Made by a program: the position numbers and the translations under genes. A stretch of DNA of 51,706 nt, taken from assembly GCA_007695055.1 (NCBI GenBank), contig REEM01000199.1:1-51706 (forward strand). Reading direction: 5' to 3'. Positions 8,685 to 47,957 of this stretch are shown here, piece after piece. Below the pieces are notes generated by a model that was not told where the DNA came from, searched no databases, and saw only the letters and a list, made by a program, of their open reading frames with translations. The stretch is from Spirochaetaceae bacterium. GTDB taxonomy: Bacteria > Spirochaetota > Spirochaetia > DSM-27196 > SLAA01. Every line of letters begins with the position of its first letter. The stretch's first letter is position 1.

Positions 8685-8744
8685 TACTCTACTCCTTAAC
8701 TGATTGCGAGACTGGTGAGCAGCTGCCGGCCCACGTCACGGTGA

Positions 8745-8773
8745 ATTATATTTCTCCCCTATCCCTTTGTCAA
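8745..8773 (-). promoter_or_regulatory. Perfect consensus sigma-70 promoter of the flaA-like operon
   Basis: On the minus strand TTGACA (8773-8768), a 17-bp spacer and TATAAT (8750-8745): 12/12 match with optimal spacing. Start of transcription is expected near 8738. The rest of the gap to 8913 shows no other clear element. Confidence 0.92.
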
Positions 8774-10546: not shown

Positions 10547-10576
10547 TTGACAGTTTGGTGGTAGGACGACTAGGAT
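10547..10576 (+). promoter_or_regulatory. Sigma-70 promoter of metX, predicted leaderless
   Basis: TTGACA (10547-10552), 18-bp spacer, TAGGAT (10571-10576), then seven bases to the metX ATG at 10584. The only Shine-Dalgarno-like bases (AGGA) are inside the -10 element itself. Confidence 0.75.
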
Positions 10577-10583
10577 TCCATTC

Positions 10584-11738
10584 ATGAGTTCAGAGTCCAG
10601 TCCCGTCGCCGAGTCGCTCGGCATAGTACAGGAACACACCTACACATTCGGCCCCCCAGGTGAGCCGATTATCCTGGAAAACGGTCGAGCGTTTGGACCA
10701 ATAGATGTACGGTACGAAACCTACGGTAACCTCAATGCTGAGCGCAGCAACGCCGTACTGATTCTCCATGCCTTTACCGGTGACGCTCACGCCGCCGGAT
10801 TCCACACAGCTGAAAGCAAGCACCCAGGCTGGTGGAACGACATGGTAGGCCCTGGAAAACCCTTCGACACCAATAAGTACTTTGTCATTTGTTCTAATGT
10901 ATTGGGTGGATGCAGAGGGACGACCGGTCCCGGCTCCATGGATCCGGAGACAGGCAAACCATTCGGCTTGTCCTTTCCGGTAATCACCATCCGAGACATG
11001 GTGAATGTACAGAAGCGCCTGGTTGATCATCTGGGTATACAGCGGCTCTTGGCCGTTGCTGGAGGCTCAATGGGCGGTATGCAAGCCCTTGAGTGGAGTG
11101 TTGCGTATCCGGAAATGGTGGCCTCAAGTATTGTGCTGGCCTCGACCGCGCGGCTTACGGCTCAAGGCATTGCATTTAACGCGGTTGGTCGGAATGCCAT
11201 CATGTCGGATCCACATTTCCAGTCAGGAAATTACTATTCCGACCAGATGCCAGCTCAAGGGCTGTCTATTGCGCGCATGGTTGGACACATTACCTACCTC
11301 TCGGACGAGTCCATGGGTATGAAGTTCGGCCGCAAACTCCAGGAAAGGGCTGCCTACGGCTTTGACTTTGCGGACCAGTTTCAGGTGGAGAGCTACCTTG
11401 AGTATCAAGGCGACAAGTTCGTCGACCGCTTTGACGCGAACTCATACATCTATCTTTCAAAAGCTATGGACTACTATGACCTTGGTGAACGCTACGGCGG
11501 GCTCGATTTCGCAGCATCGCGAATTACCGGTAAGGTACTGGTGATTTCCTTCACCTCCGACTGGCTGTACCCACCCTATCAGGCAAAGGAGGTTGTGTTT
11601 GCCCTCATGAAAGCGGAGAAAGATGTATCGTACACGGAGCTCAACAGCCCATACGGGCACGACTCGTTTTTGTTGGAAACCAAGCGTCAAGGGCGACTTA
11701 TCTCGTCTTTTCTAGGATCTGTTTATGGGCATGATTGA
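10584..11738 (+). CDS. metX: Homoserine O-acetyltransferase (MetX)
   Basis: 384 residues, the usual length. It moves an acetyl (or succinyl) group from CoA to homoserine, the entry step of methionine synthesis, in the cytoplasm. Alpha/beta-hydrolase fold: nucleophile S162 in AGGSMGGMQALEW, Asp in TSDWLYPP, His in YGHDSFLLE; the LGGCRGTTGPGS oxyanion-side loop is family-specific. Acetyl versus succinyl use cannot be settled by eye. It overlaps metW by 14 bp. No SAM riboswitch or other leader is present since transcription appears to start at the ATG. Confidence 0.94.
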   Translation: MSSESSPVAESLGIVQEHTYTFGPPGEPIILENGRAFGPIDVRYETYGNLNAERSNAVLILHAFTGDAHAAGFHTAESKHPGWWNDMVGPGKPFDTNKYFVICSNVLGGCRGTTGPGSMDPETGKPFGLSFPVITIRDMVNVQKRLVDHLGIQRLLAVAGGSMGGMQALEWSVAYPEMVASSIVLASTARLTAQGIAFNAVGRNAIMSDPHFQSGNYYSDQMPAQGLSIARMVGHITYLSDESMGMKFGRKLQERAAYGFDFADQFQVESYLEYQGDKFVDRFDANSYIYLSKAMDYYDLGERYGGLDFAASRITGKVLVISFTSDWLYPPYQAKEVVFALMKAEKDVSYTELNSPYGHDSFLLETKRQGRLISSFLGSVYGHD

Positions 11739-31035: not shown

Positions 31036-32790
31036 ATGTTTCGATTCTCACACCCCATATTTAACGCATTACTCATACCAGCTGCAGGTTTTCTGCTGGT
31101 TCTGACCTTTGGTCTCTTGGTTTCGACGCCTGCCCTGGCCCAAGAGGCTCCATTCGGCGGTCTGAACATCCATGATGAGCCGATAGAAGATATCGTTGAA
31201 AGAATTCTGTCCGAACTCAGTTCCGAGGAGATGGTGGGCCAGGTATTTCTTTTAGGTTGGCAGGGAGAAGGCCCAAGCGCCACCATAATGGACTGGATCA
31301 GACGCCGCAATCTTGGTGGAGTCAAGATTTTCGGTTGGAATGCAGATCATATTCCTACCCTTGTGAACTCCATTCGCACAATGCAGGCTGCGGCACTTGG
31401 TAGAAATGGAATTCCTTTGTTTACCGCCACGGATCAGGAAGGCGGATGGGTTCGTCATGTGCGCGGCAACACCGCAATCACTCCCGGCAACATGGCAATT
31501 GGAGCTGGAGGGCTACCACAAGACGCATACCTGAGCGGATACCATATTGGTAAAGAACTCAACGCGCTTGGAATAAACATGAACTTTGCCCCAACTGTAG
31601 ACCTCTACACTAACCCGGAAGCTGTCGTTATTGGTCCGCGTGCCTTTTCAGATGATCCCGTTCAATCCGGCATATTGGGAGCAGCTTTCGCGAGGGGCCT
31701 ATCAGACACCGGGGTCCTGGCAACTGGGAAGCACTTCCCTGGACACGGAAATGCTGACGGTGACTCGCATGGGGTGCTTCCGGTACTGAATGAGACTCTT
31801 GAGGAGCTCCGAGACCGCGAACTGGTTCCTTTCCGCATAATGATCAGGGAGGGTGTTCCAGCACTTATGTCCGCCCACCTTGCTTTCCCCGCCATAGACC
31901 CTCGCGGGACTCCGGCCTCGCTCTCATCCCGTTTTCAACGTGATATTCTACGCGATGAGTTGGGCTTTGAAGGAATAATTATTACCGACGATCTCTACAT
32001 GGGGGGGGCCACAGTCTACCAGGCGCGCACAGGACGCAGCTTTGCTGAGATCTGCCTCGAGGCACTCATTGCTGGCAACGACATGATCATGCTGTCGCGC
32101 ACGCCCGCAATAAATGATGCAATCTGGCGTGTGGTACATGACCGTTACCTCACAGACCCCGAGTTTGCCACAACCATTCGAAACTCGGTACGCCGAATTC
32201 TGCGTGCCAAGATTACTATGTTGAAGGCTGATAACCCGGTGCCGGTATTTCCCACTATTGCCGAGGCCAACAGAGTACTGGGAAACCAGGATGGGCGCGA
32301 TTTCTTCTTTCAAAGCGCTGCCCGTGGTGTGACCGTACTTCGCAACGGGGCGCTACCAATAGATCCGGCCAACGGCAACCGCATTCTCCTCGTAGGTAAC
32401 AACCCACGATTTTTCTCTGTGGGACGACGATTTTACCCGAACGCGGCCGAGTTAAGACTGAACAATATAAATCCTGCCTTTTCCACCGCAGCAGACCGTG
32501 AAATGGTTCCGAGAGTAGCCTCCAACTATGACACCATTATTTTTAACGTTTCCAGCCTCAACACCTTTGAGGTCGTATCACAGCTCCGAGATATGGATGT
32601 TGAGGTGGTGGTTTTGTCGGTCTTAAGCCCAAGTCGTGTTCGCGATTTAGATTGGGTTGGGGCCAAGGTAGCCGTTTACGGCTGGGGTAATGAGTCATTT
32701 GAGAGTGGTTTCGCAGTCCTGCGTGGCGACTTCACCAGCGCTGGTACACTCCCGTTGAACTGGCATGAAACTCTTGATCAACTTGACTGA
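31036..32790 (+). CDS. Glycoside hydrolase family 3, beta-N-acetylhexosaminidase (NagZ-like), exported
   Basis: 584 residues from ATG 31036, set by AGAGGA eight bases upstream (ATG 31030 is too close). Signal peptide ends ALAQ-EA, so the enzyme is periplasmic, unlike cytoplasmic E. coli NagZ, and has an extra C-terminal domain of ~220 residues as in Gram-positive NagZ. GH3 motifs: KHFPGHGNADGDSH near residue 231 (with the NagZ His of D-x-H) and IITDDLYMGG near 317 (nucleophile Asp). It should trim GlcNAc from muropeptides. A G8 run codes MGGA just after the nucleophile. Confidence 0.88.
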   Translation: MFRFSHPIFNALLIPAAGFLLVLTFGLLVSTPALAQEAPFGGLNIHDEPIEDIVERILSELSSEEMVGQVFLLGWQGEGPSATIMDWIRRRNLGGVKIFGWNADHIPTLVNSIRTMQAAALGRNGIPLFTATDQEGGWVRHVRGNTAITPGNMAIGAGGLPQDAYLSGYHIGKELNALGINMNFAPTVDLYTNPEAVVIGPRAFSDDPVQSGILGAAFARGLSDTGVLATGKHFPGHGNADGDSHGVLPVLNETLEELRDRELVPFRIMIREGVPALMSAHLAFPAIDPRGTPASLSSRFQRDILRDELGFEGIIITDDLYMGGATVYQARTGRSFAEICLEALIAGNDMIMLSRTPAINDAIWRVVHDRYLTDPEFATTIRNSVRRILRAKITMLKADNPVPVFPTIAEANRVLGNQDGRDFFFQSAARGVTVLRNGALPIDPANGNRILLVGNNPRFFSVGRRFYPNAAELRLNNINPAFSTAADREMVPRVASNYDTIIFNVSSLNTFEVVSQLRDMDVEVVVLSVLSPSRVRDLDWVGAKVAVYGWGNESFESGFAVLRGDFTSAGTLPLNWHETLDQLD

Positions 32791-41634: not shown

Positions 41635-42171
41635 TTACTCTCGTGAAACTGATGCCCGCAACCGCACCTGAGCTTCGCCCAGCTGCACCTCCGCAAGGAT
41701 ACGCCCCTGCTCGCGCGGCGGCCTGTAGTCCGAGATAATCTCACGAATCACCCGCTCTCCACCGTGTTCGGGAGGTGTTTCTATCAGACGCAGAAGTTCC
41801 ACACCGTCTTGATCACTCAACACCACCTCTACTATCCCTTCCCCGGCAACGCTCGGAGTGCCAGCTTCGGCTAAGGATTCGACAGCAAGGGTCACCAGTA
41901 CATCATCTCCAAACTGCACAGCCCGGAGTCGAAACTCGAAGGAGCTCATCCGCGCCGTACTGGCATCTGGAGCAAGGAAAAATATGTAGAGGAAGTAGAT
42001 AAGCAGAATAACCGCTAGATCAATAAGAATGATTGCCAGAGATCTGTTCCGCTTAAAAATGCTTTCCGGCTTTTTCTTTTTCTCGGCCGCCGGATCGTAA
42101 CCGAGTCGCTCAGCGCGACTGTAGTGAAAGTGCGGTGCCCCGGTTGGGTCGTTAGTCTCGCGTGAACTCAT
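41635..42171 (-). CDS. Single-pass membrane protein of unknown function
   Basis: 178 residues. Residues 1-43 are cytoplasmic and charged (AEKKKKPESIFKRNR), one TM helix at about 46-67 (LAIILIDLAVILLIYFLYIF), then a ~110-residue outer domain of beta strands (FEFRLRAVQFGDDVLVTLAVE, GRILAEVQLGEAQVRLRASV). Its ATG overlaps the stop of the NAD(P)HX repair gene (ATGA). No family recognised; an envelope protein is likely from topology. Confidence 0.7.
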   Translation of the reverse strand: MSSRETNDPTGAPHFHYSRAERLGYDPAAEKKKKPESIFKRNRSLAIILIDLAVILLIYFLYIFFLAPDASTARMSSFEFRLRAVQFGDDVLVTLAVESLAEAGTPSVAGEGIVEVVLSDQDGVELLRLIETPPEHGGERVIREIISDYRPPREQGRILAEVQLGEAQVRLRASVSRE

Positions 42172-43826
42172 AGCATGTCCCGTTTCCCCACGTCGCTGTC
42201 ATTCTCAAACCGCAAACTCTTGGCGGCTGCGATCACCCGCCCTATCTCAGGTGGAAGATCCCCTGGGCTGAACACTCCGTAACGGTTACGCGCGGCTTGA
42301 GCCGCCGCCGCCAAGGTCAAAACGCCAGCGCACGCGGCCTCAAAGGCCTCTGCGCCCCCGGCGCGGAAGGAGCCAATGCATCCGCAGAGAATATCACCGC
42401 TCCCGCCTGCTGCCAGAAGCGGATCTGCACCGTCGTAGACCGCGCAACGCCCGTCGGGCGCCATGATCCAGGTAACCGGGCCTTTGAGTACCACAACCGC
42501 ACCGAGAGATGCGGAGCATTCAGCGAGCATGGCCCGGCGTGAGGCGGCGTCCGGCGGTACCGGCCCAAAGCCCAGTCGCTCGAACTCACCGTGATGTGGT
42601 GTGAGTATCCAGCCAGCTACCGGAGACTCGGAGCCAAAAGCACTCTCACCAAGGAGCCGCCCTAAAGCGAACAATCCGTCGGCATCTATCACACCGGGCG
42701 GCAGGGCTCTCAACAAGCGCTGCAGCTGCTCCACCCTATCATGAGCTCGTCCCCAACCAGGGCCAACGATGGCTGATTTGAAGGTGCGGAACTCTGCAGC
42801 TACCGGAGCCTTGTCCCCAACGCCGGAGTTTGAAGCAACGACGGCGGGATCAAGCGACGTCATCCGCTGCAGCGCAGCAGCCTCACTGAAAAGCTGCACG
42901 TACCCGGCCCGACTGCGCAGAGCGGCATTACACGCCATAACCGCCGCGCCCGGGTACTCCTCCGAACCGGCAAACACCGCCAGCGCACCCCGTTGATACT
43001 TGTGTGCATAGGCGTCGAAATCCGGGACAAAACCGGCAAGGTCCTTTGCCTCAAGCAGAACGGCTCGGCGGCCGTGGGTGCTGAGTTCCGCCCCCGTCAC
43101 CGCTTTGGCGCTGAGCTCTGCCTGTATGAGTGCCGGAGGGAAGCCAAGAGGAACCATGCGAATAGAACCACACAGTGGGCGCGCGAGCTCGGTGTAGTAA
43201 CAGAGTTTAGGGAGCTCAACCGCAAGGGTGAGCTGAGCAGCAACAGCGACGCGGTCACCCCGAAAGTCGTCAGATACGCCGCTCGGAATGTCTATGGAGA
43301 CACGGCAAGCCGGAGCACGGTTAATTCGTTCCAGTAATGACACCGCCGCAGGGTGGAGGCTACCTCGCAAACCGGTGCCAAACACGCCGTCCACAATCAC
43401 CTGCGCTGACTCCAAGGCCAAGCGTGCTGCCTCGCTTTCGGCCCCGGCTGGCACCTGCGCGGCTTCACTTTCCTGACCTGCGTCCCAATGAATGGGCACA
43501 CCGAGCCGTCGCAAGATTTCTAGGTGAACTGCAGATGAGGAGCCAGGTTTGGGTTCAGCGGTGAGGAGTAGCTGTGGGCTGCCGCCAGCAAGACACAGCC
43601 ACATGCGTGCAAGCGCAAGTGCGTCACCCCCATTGTTTCCGGGGCCAGCAACAAACATAATCCGCACGCTCTCCGGGGTGTATCCCTGCTCGCGGACAAA
43701 CTGCACGAGTCCTTCCAAAAGAGAACGAGCGGCGTTCTCCATGAGAAGCAAACCCGAGATACCGTATTTTTCTTGAGATTCAAGGTCGATGTCTGACATT
43801 TCAGCCGAGTCTGGAACTGCGTACAC
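42168..43826 (-). CDS. nnr: Bifunctional NAD(P)HX epimerase/dehydratase
   Basis: 552 residues from GTG 43826 behind AAGGGGG. The N-terminal YjeF_N epimerase domain has GLLLMENAARSLLEG, FVAGPGNNGGDALALARMW and VDGVFGTGLRG; the C-terminal ADP/ATP-dependent dehydratase (ribokinase-like) domain has HKYQRGALAVFAGS, PGWGR, DADGLFAL, TPHHGEFERL and LAAGGSGDILCG. It repairs hydrated NAD(P)H in the cytoplasm. 21 bp after the lipoprotein gene and overlapping the next gene. Confidence 0.93.
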   Translation of the reverse strand: MYAVPDSAEMSDIDLESQEKYGISGLLLMENAARSLLEGLVQFVREQGYTPESVRIMFVAGPGNNGGDALALARMWLCLAGGSPQLLLTAEPKPGSSSAVHLEILRRLGVPIHWDAGQESEAAQVPAGAESEAARLALESAQVIVDGVFGTGLRGSLHPAAVSLLERINRAPACRVSIDIPSGVSDDFRGDRVAVAAQLTLAVELPKLCYYTELARPLCGSIRMVPLGFPPALIQAELSAKAVTGAELSTHGRRAVLLEAKDLAGFVPDFDAYAHKYQRGALAVFAGSEEYPGAAVMACNAALRSRAGYVQLFSEAAALQRMTSLDPAVVASNSGVGDKAPVAAEFRTFKSAIVGPGWGRAHDRVEQLQRLLRALPPGVIDADGLFALGRLLGESAFGSESPVAGWILTPHHGEFERLGFGPVPPDAASRRAMLAECSASLGAVVVLKGPVTWIMAPDGRCAVYDGADPLLAAGGSGDILCGCIGSFRAGGAEAFEAACAGVLTLAAAAQAARNRYGVFSPGDLPPEIGRVIAAAKSLRFENDSDVGKRDML

Positions 43827-43847: not shown

Positions 43848-45092
43848 TTACTGGATAAGACTACGCATGAGACGATCACTCCTCCACCAGACGACATTCG
43901 CACCGTCTCTATTTGCCAGTAGCGCGGTAAGAATGCCCTCCGGGGAAACATGGAATGTGCGATAAAACATGCCTTTGTCGTCCACCACTATATTTCGCCG
44001 TCCAAGAACTCGCCCGGAGCTGTTCATAACCAGGAGCTGTGAGCGGCGTTCGTCCTCCCTGCTCAGCAGAAGAAAATGCTCACCCGGGGCCACTCCGACC
44101 AGTTCGTAGAGATGGCGCACCTCTTCGCGTTCAAAGATACTACTTCCAACAACGTTGTGCACATTTTCGGGGACATCGACATACCCTTCATAACGCCCAC
44201 TCTCTAAGTCGAGCCAGTACACGCGCGAAGCAAAGATCTCTATACCGTAGCGAGCGCCTGTTTCCGGATCCTGAGACTGGTAGTAGTAGTTCAAACTCAG
44301 GTACAGACGCGGCAACTCTCTGTCGGGCAGTATAGTCTCAAGGGTAGGAATATAGTCACCACCATCGTCGGGAAAGGGAAGCCTGTCCATTGGGATCTCG
44401 ACTGTGTATAAGGGATCACCCGCTGCGTTGAACCAGAAGATGAGCCATGTATCGAGCGTACGCGAAATCACTACAATCTCATCACGATCGGTTGTGTGAA
44501 GACTCTCGATATAAGGAAAGGGGCTTCCGCCAACGCCCTCCTGCCCAAGGTAGTCAAGCAAGGTACCATCTCGTCCAAAACGCAGTACCAGTCGGTTTAA
44601 ACTGACCTGGAGATCCTCGTCGTAACTTGCTCGTTCGGAAGGAAGTCGGTCTTCCACCAGGAGCGTGTTATCGGAGCTCAGCGCAATCTCACCAAGCTGG
44701 GTGAAGTGATACGGTACGGCCCGCCGGTTGCTCACAGTCTCATCCCGCTGAGTACTTTGTACCAGCACCGGTCGTGGGTTGTCATCGGGGTTATACACCA
44801 TTGATACCAGATCGCCGAACGAGGTAAAGGTCATGATCTTGTTGGCACTGCCGTTGGCAATAGCAAACATACCGTCGCGCATCACAATACGGGTTTTTGC
44901 CTGCAGAGGAGATCCCGGTGCATGAAAAAGGTCGAGCTCACTTTCCATGCGACCAATTGCAAGTTCAAAAAGATCCTCGCGTTCGAGCGCAACGACCTGC
45001 GACCGACTACAGCTGCCAAGCAAGAGGAGGAGGATAATGGCTGCCGAGCCCCAAAAGGCCATGTAAAGGGGGGGGGGTGTTTTTCGTGTCAC
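43848..45092 (-). CDS. Lipoprotein with beta-propeller-like body; C10 tract near the start
   Basis: 414 residues from GTG 45092. The signal sequence YMAFWGSAAIILLLLLGSC ends in a lipobox (LGSC, Cys 28). The body (MFAIANGSANKIMTFTSFGDLV, LFELAIGRMESELDLF, YHFTQLGEIALSSDNTLLVED, VISRTLDTWLIFWFNAAGDPL) has repeated strands with turn motifs like NHL/6-bladed propellers. Codons 6-9 are coded by ten C in a row on this strand; an in-frame ATG (codon 11) follows the tract. The promoter ends only 8 bases before the GTG. Heads the operon with nnr and the 178-residue gene. Function unknown. Confidence 0.75.
   Translation of the reverse strand: MTRKTPPPLYMAFWGSAAIILLLLLGSCSRSQVVALEREDLFELAIGRMESELDLFHAPGSPLQAKTRIVMRDGMFAIANGSANKIMTFTSFGDLVSMVYNPDDNPRPVLVQSTQRDETVSNRRAVPYHFTQLGEIALSSDNTLLVEDRLPSERASYDEDLQVSLNRLVLRFGRDGTLLDYLGQEGVGGSPFPYIESLHTTDRDEIVVISRTLDTWLIFWFNAAGDPLYTVEIPMDRLPFPDDGGDYIPTLETILPDRELPRLYLSLNYYYQSQDPETGARYGIEIFASRVYWLDLESGRYEGYVDVPENVHNVVGSSIFEREEVRHLYELVGVAPGEHFLLLSREDERRSQLLVMNSSGRVLGRRNIVVDDKGMFYRTFHVSPEGILTALLANRDGANVVWWRSDRLMRSLIQ
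45068..45077. repeat. Homopolymer G10 (C10 on the coding strand)
   Basis: Ten G at 45068-45077, inside codons 6-9 of the lipoprotein gene, between its GTG and the next in-frame ATG. The longest homopolymer I noticed in the window. Confidence 0.95.
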
Positions 45093-45100
45093 AGCCTTGG

Positions 45101-45130
45101 ATAATACCTGTCGCCGCTATTATCTGTCAA
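45101..45130 (-). promoter_or_regulatory. Sigma-70 promoter of the lipoprotein-nnr operon, predicted near-leaderless
   Basis: On the minus strand TTGACA (45130-45125), 18-bp spacer, TATTAT (45106-45101), then eight bases to GTG 45092. The -35 element lies 2 bp from the secA -35 on the opposite strand, so the two promoters are back to back and polymerases may compete. Confidence 0.8.
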
Positions 45131-45132
45131 TC

Positions 45133-45162
45133 TTGACCCCGCTTTCCTAATTCGGCTACAGT
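45133..45162 (+). promoter_or_regulatory. Sigma-70 promoter of secA, predicted leaderless
   Basis: TTGACC (45133-45138), 18-bp spacer, TACAGT (45157-45162), then five bases to ATG 45168. No Shine-Dalgarno stands apart from the -10. A leaderless secA would have no secM-like control. Confidence 0.7.
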
Positions 45163-45167
45163 GAGTC

Positions 45168-47957
45168 ATGGTTCAAAAGCTAATCGATGTTGTTTTCGGC
45201 TCCAAAAGCGAGCACGATCTTAAAAGACTCTTACCAATTCTCCATGCAATAAATGCTCGTGAGAACTGGGCTTTATCTCTTCAGGAAGAAGACTTCCCTA
45301 AAGAAACCGACAAACTCCGTCAACGGTATGCCGACGGCGAGTCGTTGGACGATATGCTTCCCGACGCCTATGCGCTCGCACGCGAAGCTGCCCGTCGTGT
45401 TTTGGGCGAACGCCTGTACGACGTGCAGCTCCTGGGTGGTATTGTCTTGCATCAAGGCAAGATCATGGAAATGAAAACGGGTGAGGGAAAAACAGTGACC
45501 TCTGTCACTGCCGCCTATCTCAACGCGCTTTCGGGTAAGGGCGTGCACCTTATCACGGTCAATGACTACCTTGCCGAGCGTGATGCCGGATGGATGGGGC
45601 CCATTTACAACTACCTTGGGCTTAGTGTCGGTGCGATACTCTCGCAGATGGAGGTCTCAGCACGGCAAGCAGCCTACGGCTGCGACATTACCTACGGTAC
45701 CAACAACGAGTTTGGATTCGACTATCTGCGTGACAATATGCGCTTTGATTCGGGCAGTAAGGTACAGCGGCATCACAACTACTGTATTGTTGACGAAATC
45801 GACTCAATCCTCGTTGACGAGGCACGGACTCCACTTATTATCTCCGGGCAAACCGAGGACGATACGCGTAAATACTCCGAGGTAAACCGCATCATTGGCG
45901 ACTTGATCGAGTGCGCCAAGGACCCTGAGACCGGAGACTATCCCGATGAGCCCGAGGGTGACTTCAAACTTGATGAAAAGGGTAAGCGTGTAAGCTTCAC
46001 CGATGAAGGACTGAATCACCTTGAAGCCCTCCTCCAACGACGCAAGATAATTAATGGGTCGCTCTTTGACGAGGAGAACTTTGAATACATTCACCATGTA
46101 ACACAGGCTGTACGGGCACACAAGCTTTACCACCATGACACCGAGTACGTGGTAAAGGATGGGCTCGTGCAGATTGTCGACGAGTTTACCGGGCGTATTT
46201 TGCACGGACGACGCTACTCCGAAGGGCTGCACCAAGCAATTGAGGCCAAGGAAGGCATTCGCATTGCACAACGCAACCGCACCCTCGCTACCATTACCTT
46301 CCAGAACTTCTTCCGTATGTACAAGAAGCTCTCGGGAATGACCGGTACCGCCGAGACCGAGTCCAAGGAGTTTGGAAATATTTATGGTCTTGATGTTGTC
46401 GTAATTCCGACGAACCGCCCCTTGGCACGACTTGACCAGGACGACGTCATTTATGTTGGTGAGAATGAGAAGTTCACCGCCATTGCAGAAGAGGTAAAAC
46501 GGGCTACTGACAAGGGTCAGCCTATGCTGATTGGTACCGTCTCAATTGAACGCTCGGAAAAACTCGCACACATGCTCACACGGCGCGGCGTTCGCCACGA
46601 AGTGCTGAATGCCAAGAACCATGCACGTGAAGCCCTCATTATAGCGGAGGCAGGCGCCAAGGGGTCGGTTACGATTGCCACGAACATGGCAGGACGTGGA
46701 ACCGACATCAAGTTGGGTGGGAATCCGGAGTTCCGTGCCCGCCGCAAGGTCGGTACCGAGGCAAGTGAGGAGGAGTACCAGGCCGCTTATGAGAAGGAGT
46801 TTGCAGCTTGGCGCAAGGACTACGAGGAAGTACAGCAGGCTGGCGGCCTCTACGTGCTGGGTACCGAGCGCCACGAGTCGCGCCGTATTGACAATCAGCT
46901 GCGTGGTCGTTCCGGACGTCAAGGTGACCCGGGCGAGTCCCGATTCTTCCTCTCCATGGATGACGACCTTATGCGGCTCTTTGGTAAGGGTTCGGTCAAT
47001 CTCAAGTCGCTCATGGAGAAGGGCCTCCCCGAGGGAGAACCCCTCAATCACCGCCTCATTAACAGAAGCATAGAAAAGGCGCAGCAAAAGGTTGAGGAAC
47101 GAAACTTCGACATTCGTAAACACCTGCTTGAGTATGACGATGTACTCAACGAACAGCGCAAGGTCATATACAGGCAACGCGACGAAATACTAGATGCTCC
47201 CGATCTTGTCGGACGAGTGCTCAATACTGCAACGGAAATCCTTGAGTCTTCCGCAGCCGAGTATCTTTCGGACCGCGGCAAGAATGAGCCAGCCTTCCTG
47301 AACCTCCTTGAACAGCTGAAACAAGAGCTGTTCTTTGTGTCAGAGCGTGACCAGGAGGAACTGGCCAAACTACCACCACAGAAACTTGTAGAGAGTCTGA
47401 CTGCAGAAATGGAGCAGAACCTGCGGGAGAAGGCCGAAATTGCAGGCTCAGAACGCTTTAATGTGGCGGTACGCTTTGAATACCTTCGCAACATTGACAA
47501 CCGTTGGCAAGATCACCTGGAGAATCTTGAAGCCCTGCGAGAAGCGGTATACCTGCGGAGTTATGCACAGCAGAATCCACTGCTCGAGTACAAACTTGAA
47601 GGCTTTCAGATTTTTGACGAGCTTATTCACGGCATTCGTACCGCGGTGGCCAAGAAGCTCTTTGCAATTAAGGCAGAGACCTTACAGCCGCAACGGTTCC
47701 ACCGTGCTCCTGTCTCCCGAACGACAGAGGTGCATTCCGGTATGCAGATGATTGGTGGTGGTGCGGCAGCTGCCGCAGCGGCGGGCGCTGCTCCTGCTGG
47801 CGCTGGTGCGGCGACAGCAACAGCAACCGCCGAAGCGCCAGCCAGCGCTGCCCGACCGTCGGGCGTTGTCACCCGAGGGATGGAAAAGGTAGGCCGCAAC
47901 GACCCCTGCCCATGCGGGAGCGGCAAAAAGTACAAGCACTGTCACGGGCGGGGATAG
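45168..47957 (+). CDS. secA: Preprotein translocase ATPase SecA
   Basis: 929 residues. SecA drives export of unfolded preproteins through SecYEG. Walker A MKTGEGKTVTS, DEIDSILVDEARTPLIISG, MAGRGTDIKLGG and GRSGRQGDPGESRFFLS are all intact. The Ala/Gly-rich linker (GGGAAAAAAAGAAPAGAGAA) near 865-890 is followed by the SEC-C zinc motif CPCGSGKKYKHCHG, which binds SecB or lipid. Clients in this window include FlaA, FMN-binding protein, lipoproteins and LepB substrates. Confidence 0.98.
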   Translation: MVQKLIDVVFGSKSEHDLKRLLPILHAINARENWALSLQEEDFPKETDKLRQRYADGESLDDMLPDAYALAREAARRVLGERLYDVQLLGGIVLHQGKIMEMKTGEGKTVTSVTAAYLNALSGKGVHLITVNDYLAERDAGWMGPIYNYLGLSVGAILSQMEVSARQAAYGCDITYGTNNEFGFDYLRDNMRFDSGSKVQRHHNYCIVDEIDSILVDEARTPLIISGQTEDDTRKYSEVNRIIGDLIECAKDPETGDYPDEPEGDFKLDEKGKRVSFTDEGLNHLEALLQRRKIINGSLFDEENFEYIHHVTQAVRAHKLYHHDTEYVVKDGLVQIVDEFTGRILHGRRYSEGLHQAIEAKEGIRIAQRNRTLATITFQNFFRMYKKLSGMTGTAETESKEFGNIYGLDVVVIPTNRPLARLDQDDVIYVGENEKFTAIAEEVKRATDKGQPMLIGTVSIERSEKLAHMLTRRGVRHEVLNAKNHAREALIIAEAGAKGSVTIATNMAGRGTDIKLGGNPEFRARRKVGTEASEEEYQAAYEKEFAAWRKDYEEVQQAGGLYVLGTERHESRRIDNQLRGRSGRQGDPGESRFFLSMDDDLMRLFGKGSVNLKSLMEKGLPEGEPLNHRLINRSIEKAQQKVEERNFDIRKHLLEYDDVLNEQRKVIYRQRDEILDAPDLVGRVLNTATEILESSAAEYLSDRGKNEPAFLNLLEQLKQELFFVSERDQEELAKLPPQKLVESLTAEMEQNLREKAEIAGSERFNVAVRFEYLRNIDNRWQDHLENLEALREAVYLRSYAQQNPLLEYKLEGFQIFDELIHGIRTAVAKKLFAIKAETLQPQRFHRAPVSRTTEVHSGMQMIGGGAAAAAAAGAAPAGAGAATATATAEAPASAARPSGVVTRGMEKVGRNDPCPCGSGKKYKHCHGRG

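Follow-up and report, generated by a model that had tools for sequence, protein, structure and literature searches.

A run of ten cytosines, read on the minus strand and called C10 here, is located close to the start of a lipoprotein gene in the window, i.e. the whole stretch of 51,706 nucleotides of a spirochaete contig that we have analysed. The locus raises the question of whether C10 is a switch that turns the lipoprotein on and off through changes of its own length, as a first-pass annotation of the stretch had proposed, or a homopolymer that has grown at this site by accident. From the comparison of the locus with sister species and with the rest of the genome, C10 is probably an incidental homopolymer of one spirochaete species, recent in origin and located where the signal peptide, in its n-region, is under weak constraint. 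The features that are discussed below are listed in Table 1.

Table 1. Features of the lipoprotein locus, with coordinates in the window.
Feature	Coordinates	Strand	Basis or remark
178-aa gene, one apparent membrane segment (by eye)	41635..42171	-	4-nt overlap with nnr
nnr, bifunctional NAD(P)H-hydrate epimerase/dehydratase	42168..43826	-	21 nt downstream of the lipoprotein gene
Lipoprotein gene, 414 aa, LIC_12708 family (NF047780)	43848..45092	-	NCBIfam match, relatives
Lipobox cysteine, codon 28	45009..45011	-	invariant in the four genus members
In-frame ATG, codon 11 (proposed rescue start)	45060..45062	-	ATA or CTA in congeners
C10 homopolymer (G10 on the plus strand)	45068..45077	-	codons 6-9 of the lipoprotein gene
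GTG start codon	45090..45092	-	conserved in all four genus members
-10 box TATTAT, lipoprotein promoter	45101..45106	-	ends 8 nt before the GTG
-35 box TTGACA, lipoprotein promoter	45125..45130	-	promoter scan
Palindrome GTCAATCTTGAC (GTCAAgaTTGAC), two back-to-back -35 cores	45126..45137		common to the divergent secA and lipoprotein promoters
-35 box TTGACC, secA promoter	45133..45138	+	promoter scan
-10 box TACAGT, secA promoter	45157..45162	+	ends 5 nt before the secA ATG
secA, divergent neighbour of the lipoprotein gene	45168..47957	+	position, domain match

The lipoprotein gene, its neighbours and its start codon

The lipoprotein is a member of the LIC_12708 family: its match to the NCBIfam model NF047780 (“LIC_12708 family protein”) has a score of 437.4 bits, above the curated cut-off of 150, and covers most of the model (positions 6-390 of 391). 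With this family it shares the full-length match, the lipoprotein character and the adjacency to secA, while the Pro-Pro-Pro of its n-region, which among the four members of the genus is found only in the window's species, sets it apart. The signal peptide ends with LLGSC-SRS. Of the 61 spirochaete genomes of the same class, 54 contain a relative; each of these gives a single match, apart from one genome with two partial matches on different contigs. Such conservation would speak against a variable surface or accessory product. A search of the lipoprotein against Pfam has returned no match, and nothing was found in the literature on the function of LIC_12708. Comparison with the sequences of solved structures has given three matches and no more, all of them weak (E about 0.45) and to one protein, the GM2 activator, and a structure prediction from four close sequences has been left unused (pLDDT 40.5).

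Downstream of the lipoprotein gene, where the first-pass annotation had also placed them, nnr (domains YjeF_N, PF03853, and Carb_kinase, PF01256) and the 178-residue gene, for which Pfam gives no match, follow in this order on the same strand. Because the three genes are so closely spaced, with a gap of 21 nt and an overlap of 4 nt, polar effects on nnr and the 178-residue gene are plausible, should the frame of the lipoprotein be lost.

The promoter of the lipoprotein gene, TTGACA-18-TATTAT, follows a pattern that is common to this genome and to its three congeners, i.e. TTGACA-18-TAnTAT, with 8 nt between the end of the -10 box and the GTG. In an automated scan of 30 spirochaete loci, from the order and beyond, 22 have the lipoprotein start at a distance of 3-11 nt past the -10 box, including one (L033) where the scan has chosen a GTG at 3 nt and an ATG at 9 nt is equally likely; the starts in the 22 loci are mostly ATG, with GTG occurring again in L038, a locus of another genus. 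The proposal of a near-leaderless mRNA with a GTG at its 5′ end is well supported by the recurrence of this spacing and by the presence of the GTG in four out of four genus members, the start of the transcript being placed from the spacing of the promoter. The mRNA would begin at the GTG or a few bases before it, and its translation would proceed through CCC CCC CCC C, yielding the lipoprotein of 414 residues. Comparable transcripts are known from other bacteria: in Leptospira interrogans, transcripts commonly start 0-10 nt from the start codon (PMC5243855), and a 5′-terminal GTG is sufficient for the start of translation in mycobacteria (PMC4633059). The lipoprotein gene may resemble these leaderless cases, with the difference that its transcript start is deduced from the spacing of the promoter.

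Genome-wide, strong promoters that are followed by an RTG within 5-9 nt number 51, against 7 for the reversed pattern, and those with an RTG at 15-19 nt number 24, against 3. Judging from these counts, near-leaderless genes seem to be common in the window's spirochaete. Examples of such promoters in the window are located at 8737-8773 (minus strand), 10547-10586 (plus strand) and 45090-45130 (minus strand).

Translation might instead begin at the ATG of codon 11, an AUG being usually stronger than a GUG, and the product would retain the hydrophobic core and the lipobox; C10 would then be an element of the untranslated leader, with no effect of its length on the frame. We consider this very unlikely. 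The ATG occurs in none of the three congeners, against a GTG that is kept throughout the genus, and no Shine-Dalgarno sequence was found where it was looked for before this ATG, in CCCCCCUUUACAUG. A start at codon 11 would also remove both basic residues of the n-region, R3 and K4, the latter being invariant in the genus; furthermore, the start after the -10 box in the 22 loci and the second GTG, in L038, stand against it. Since the downstream ATG is not conserved, has no Shine-Dalgarno sequence and would cost the basic residues, we strongly infer that the GTG is the start of the lipoprotein, so that C10 would be translated. The same observations weaken the earlier suggestion that the codon-11 ATG could rescue part of the lipoprotein after a shift of the frame.

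The tract and its site in sister species

The 5′ end of the gene, on the minus strand, reads GTG ACA CGA AAA ACA CCC CCC CCC CTT TAC ATG GCC; C10 spans codons 6-8 and extends one base into codon 9. It begins 15 nt inside the GTG start and 23 nt past the -10 box, within the reading frame, and the plus-strand neighbours of G10 are AAA and TG. The coordinates of the run and the codon numbers, including that of the ATG, had been given correctly by the first-pass annotation; the tract, however, is not situated between the GTG and the signal peptide, as it had been described, but within the n-region of the signal peptide. The expectation that the gain or loss of one base throws the lipoprotein out of frame is borne out by translation, as a stop is met at codon 29 in the frame of C11 and at codon 70 in that of C9; with three bases more or less, the frame is kept. 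In one respect C10 resembles a translational phase-variable locus, as a simple repeat near the start of a coding sequence, where changes by one unit shift the frame. It encodes Pro-Pro-Pro and is also a CCC-C slip site; it is the sole G/C run longer than 8 in the window and the longest non-terminal G/C run of the assembly. Slippage at C10 is probably above average: any tract of this kind would slip more often than unique sequence, and rare cells with C9 or C11 and a truncated product would be expected. Genes for MutS and MutL are present in the genome, so slippage would be partly repaired.

The tract has no equivalent in the sister species. In the alignment, the site reads ACA CCC CCC CCC CTT here, and ACA, a gap of three bases and TCC CCC CTT in the closest congener, whose lipoprotein is 96% identical at the protein level; with the gap at the same place, the second congener has ATA and TCC CGC CTT, and the third has TTA and CTT CCG TTT. 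A tract at the start of the lipoprotein gene was thus sought in the three congeners and found in none of them (T+C6, TCCCG and CTTCCG, respectively), whereas close relatives would be expected to retain a phase-variable tract at various lengths. Relative to its counterpart in the closest congener, the site is longer by exactly three bases (+3), which leaves the frame intact, and it also has a T-to-C change. Between the two species, the 75-nt intergenic region and codons 1-5 show 100% identity, while only 48 of 66 positions agree from the tract up to the lipobox cysteine, and the remaining gene is about 87-93% identical; hence, the signal peptide is the fast-changing part of the locus.

From this comparison, the growth of the tract would have consisted of an in-frame gain of three C and a T-to-C change beside an older C6, and the fast-evolving n-region would be a natural site for such accidental growth of a homopolymer. 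C10, prone to slippage as it may be, would constitute a mutational liability, whose frame is kept by purifying selection and mismatch repair, and not a switch that has been selected for its variability.

Long G/C runs and the competing readings

In the 3.43-Mb assembly, the G/C runs of length 6, 7, 8, 9 and 10 number 360, 27, 5, 4 and 1, respectively, with a G47 that ends contig C204 excluded from the counts as an artefact. Under a second-order Markov model with the window as training sequence, 3.8 runs of at least 9 and 0.73 runs of at least 10 are expected, and five and one, respectively, are observed, i.e. there is no genome-wide excess of long G/C tracts over the Markov expectation, such as contingency loci would give. 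Runs of at least 7 are about 2.7 times rarer than in the model (37 observed, 100 expected), a deficit that may reflect mild selection against long runs of G in this genome; as runs of 7-8 are under-represented, the survival of C10 is mildly notable.

The other four runs of 9, at C2:30847, C113:4038, C123:950 and C225:37152, are GGG-GGG-GGG (Gly-Gly-Gly) codons inside genes. Among these genes, as named by eye, are those for an ABC permease, for a SulP-like permease and for a protein with a diacylglycerol-kinase-like GGGDG motif, and no second gene-start tract has been seen among the runs of at least 9 in the assembly. The idea that the poly-G runs form a contingency set has been rejected, the four 9-mers being internal Gly codons and G47 a contig-end artefact. 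G47 is located at the very end of its contig (G000:C204:12981-13027) and is attributed to assembly or sequencing; poly-G at contig starts also occurs in the relatives G026 and G031, and the counts of 9-runs in 46 genomes, which are inflated by contig-end poly-G in some of them, have not been used for comparison. A G8 run of the window (32001-32008), located in an open frame of 607 residues, corresponds to Met-Gly-Gly-Ala codons (ITDDLYMGGATV) and is ordinary.

The parallel with Treponema pallidum, which had been drawn for the tract, is a loose one. C10 shares with the T. pallidum tracts the spirochaete host, the poly-G/C composition with a similar length and the location at a gene for an envelope protein. 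However, the poly-G tracts of the tpr genes (tprE/G/J, tprL) and of TP0126 are located in promoters and alter transcription (PMC7864442), a type of regulation that calls for a tract upstream of the transcript start, whereas C10 is located in the coding frame; moreover, the length of the tprL tract is known to vary from 7 to 11 (PMC7864442), while C10 is known from one assembly. Closer in arrangement are the coding-frame loci of Neisseria, Campylobacter and Bordetella, with which C10 has in common a G/C tract longer than 8 that lies close to a gene start, such that the product is truncated by a change of one base. In Bordetella, G/C tracts longer than 8 bases were taken as candidates, 29 of 30 of them being polymorphic among species, and phase-variable tracts were recognised by an excess over a Markov-type model (PMC1891110); Neisseria is rich in such tracts (PMC5084427). 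Unlike Bordetella, where the tracts exceed chance, and unlike Neisseria, this genome presents no excess, and the congeners have no tract.

Translational phase variation would require C10 to slip at a high rate, moving the lipoprotein in and out of frame, with ON and OFF subpopulations being selected. The length of C10 is within the range that varies in the known systems, the tract is located at the start of the gene, where a leaderless GTG leaves no upstream alternative, and C9 and C11 would truncate the product at codons 70 and 29, respectively. These points are outweighed by the lack of the tract in all three congeners, by the lack of the genome-wide excess on which the Bordetella screen relied, by the position of C10 as the sole gene-start tract among the runs of at least 9, and by the conserved, nearly always single-copy character of a gene that is accompanied by mismatch repair genes; phase variation is therefore disfavoured as a reading of this locus, and we regard it as unlikely. 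There is a still smaller chance that a conserved lipoprotein gene has turned phase-variable in this one environmental species, in a leaderless frame, with +1 frameshifting at CCC-C leaving some protein to the C11 cells. A miscounted or collapsed homopolymer might also be suspected, as the metagenome assembly is a draft of 245 contigs and the G47 demonstrates that it contains poly-G artefacts; given that the site is well inside the 51.7-kb contig and that C10 preserves a 414-residue frame that is conserved with the relatives, and which C9 or C11 would break, we find an error of length highly improbable.

The least probable reading, in our judgement, attributes to CCC-CCC-CCC-C an effect on translation itself, as a Pro-Pro-Pro stall and a +1-frameshift-prone site that would lower the output of the gene and tie it to the activity of EF-P and TrmD. 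CCC-C next to the start codon causes up to 1% of +1 frameshifting in E. coli (PMC4519876), and the Pro-Pro-Pro that the tract has created is missing in the congeners. The effect, however, is largest at codon 2 (PMC4519876), and it would be expected to be smaller here because the site is at codons 6-9; in addition, CCC is a common Pro codon in this genome (143 of 587 Pro codons in long frames), and the tract is specific to the species and bears no sign of selection.

The account of C10 as an incidental homopolymer is not free of opposing evidence: C10 is the longest non-terminal run in a genome where runs of 7-8 are under-represented, and its distance of 15 nt from the start codon places it where the effect of slippage is greatest. 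In its favour are the congeners that have no tract, the agreement of the run numbers with the Markov expectation at the long end, the in-frame difference of +3, the divergence of the signal peptide, the wide presence of the gene in the class and the presence of MutS and MutL.

The divergent secA/lipoprotein promoter

Of 30 loci across the order, 21 carry exact GTCAAnnTTGAC at the secA/lipoprotein promoter site, and this genome has 12 copies of it, compared with 3 of the reversed pattern. In 26 of the 30 loci, the ATG of secA follows the -10 box by no more than 11 nt, mostly by 5-6 nt, i.e. it is leaderless. At 45101-45167, the secA and lipoprotein genes both start 5-8 nt from their -10 boxes, and the arrangement is conserved across the order; a search of the literature on divergent secA promoters in spirochaetes has found nothing. 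RNA polymerase could probably occupy the shared site in only one orientation at a time, in which case secA and the lipoprotein operon would compete for it.

If the tract were found to vary, an environmental spirochaete would have phase variation in a coding frame, that of an otherwise conserved gene, and poly-G switching would be extended beyond the host-associated species. As found, the locus offers a useful negative, where a homopolymer at the start of a gene appears ordinary after comparison with sister species and genome-wide counts. A stronger lead than C10 is the divergent secA/lipoprotein promoter, which is found order-wide and serves two near-leaderless genes.
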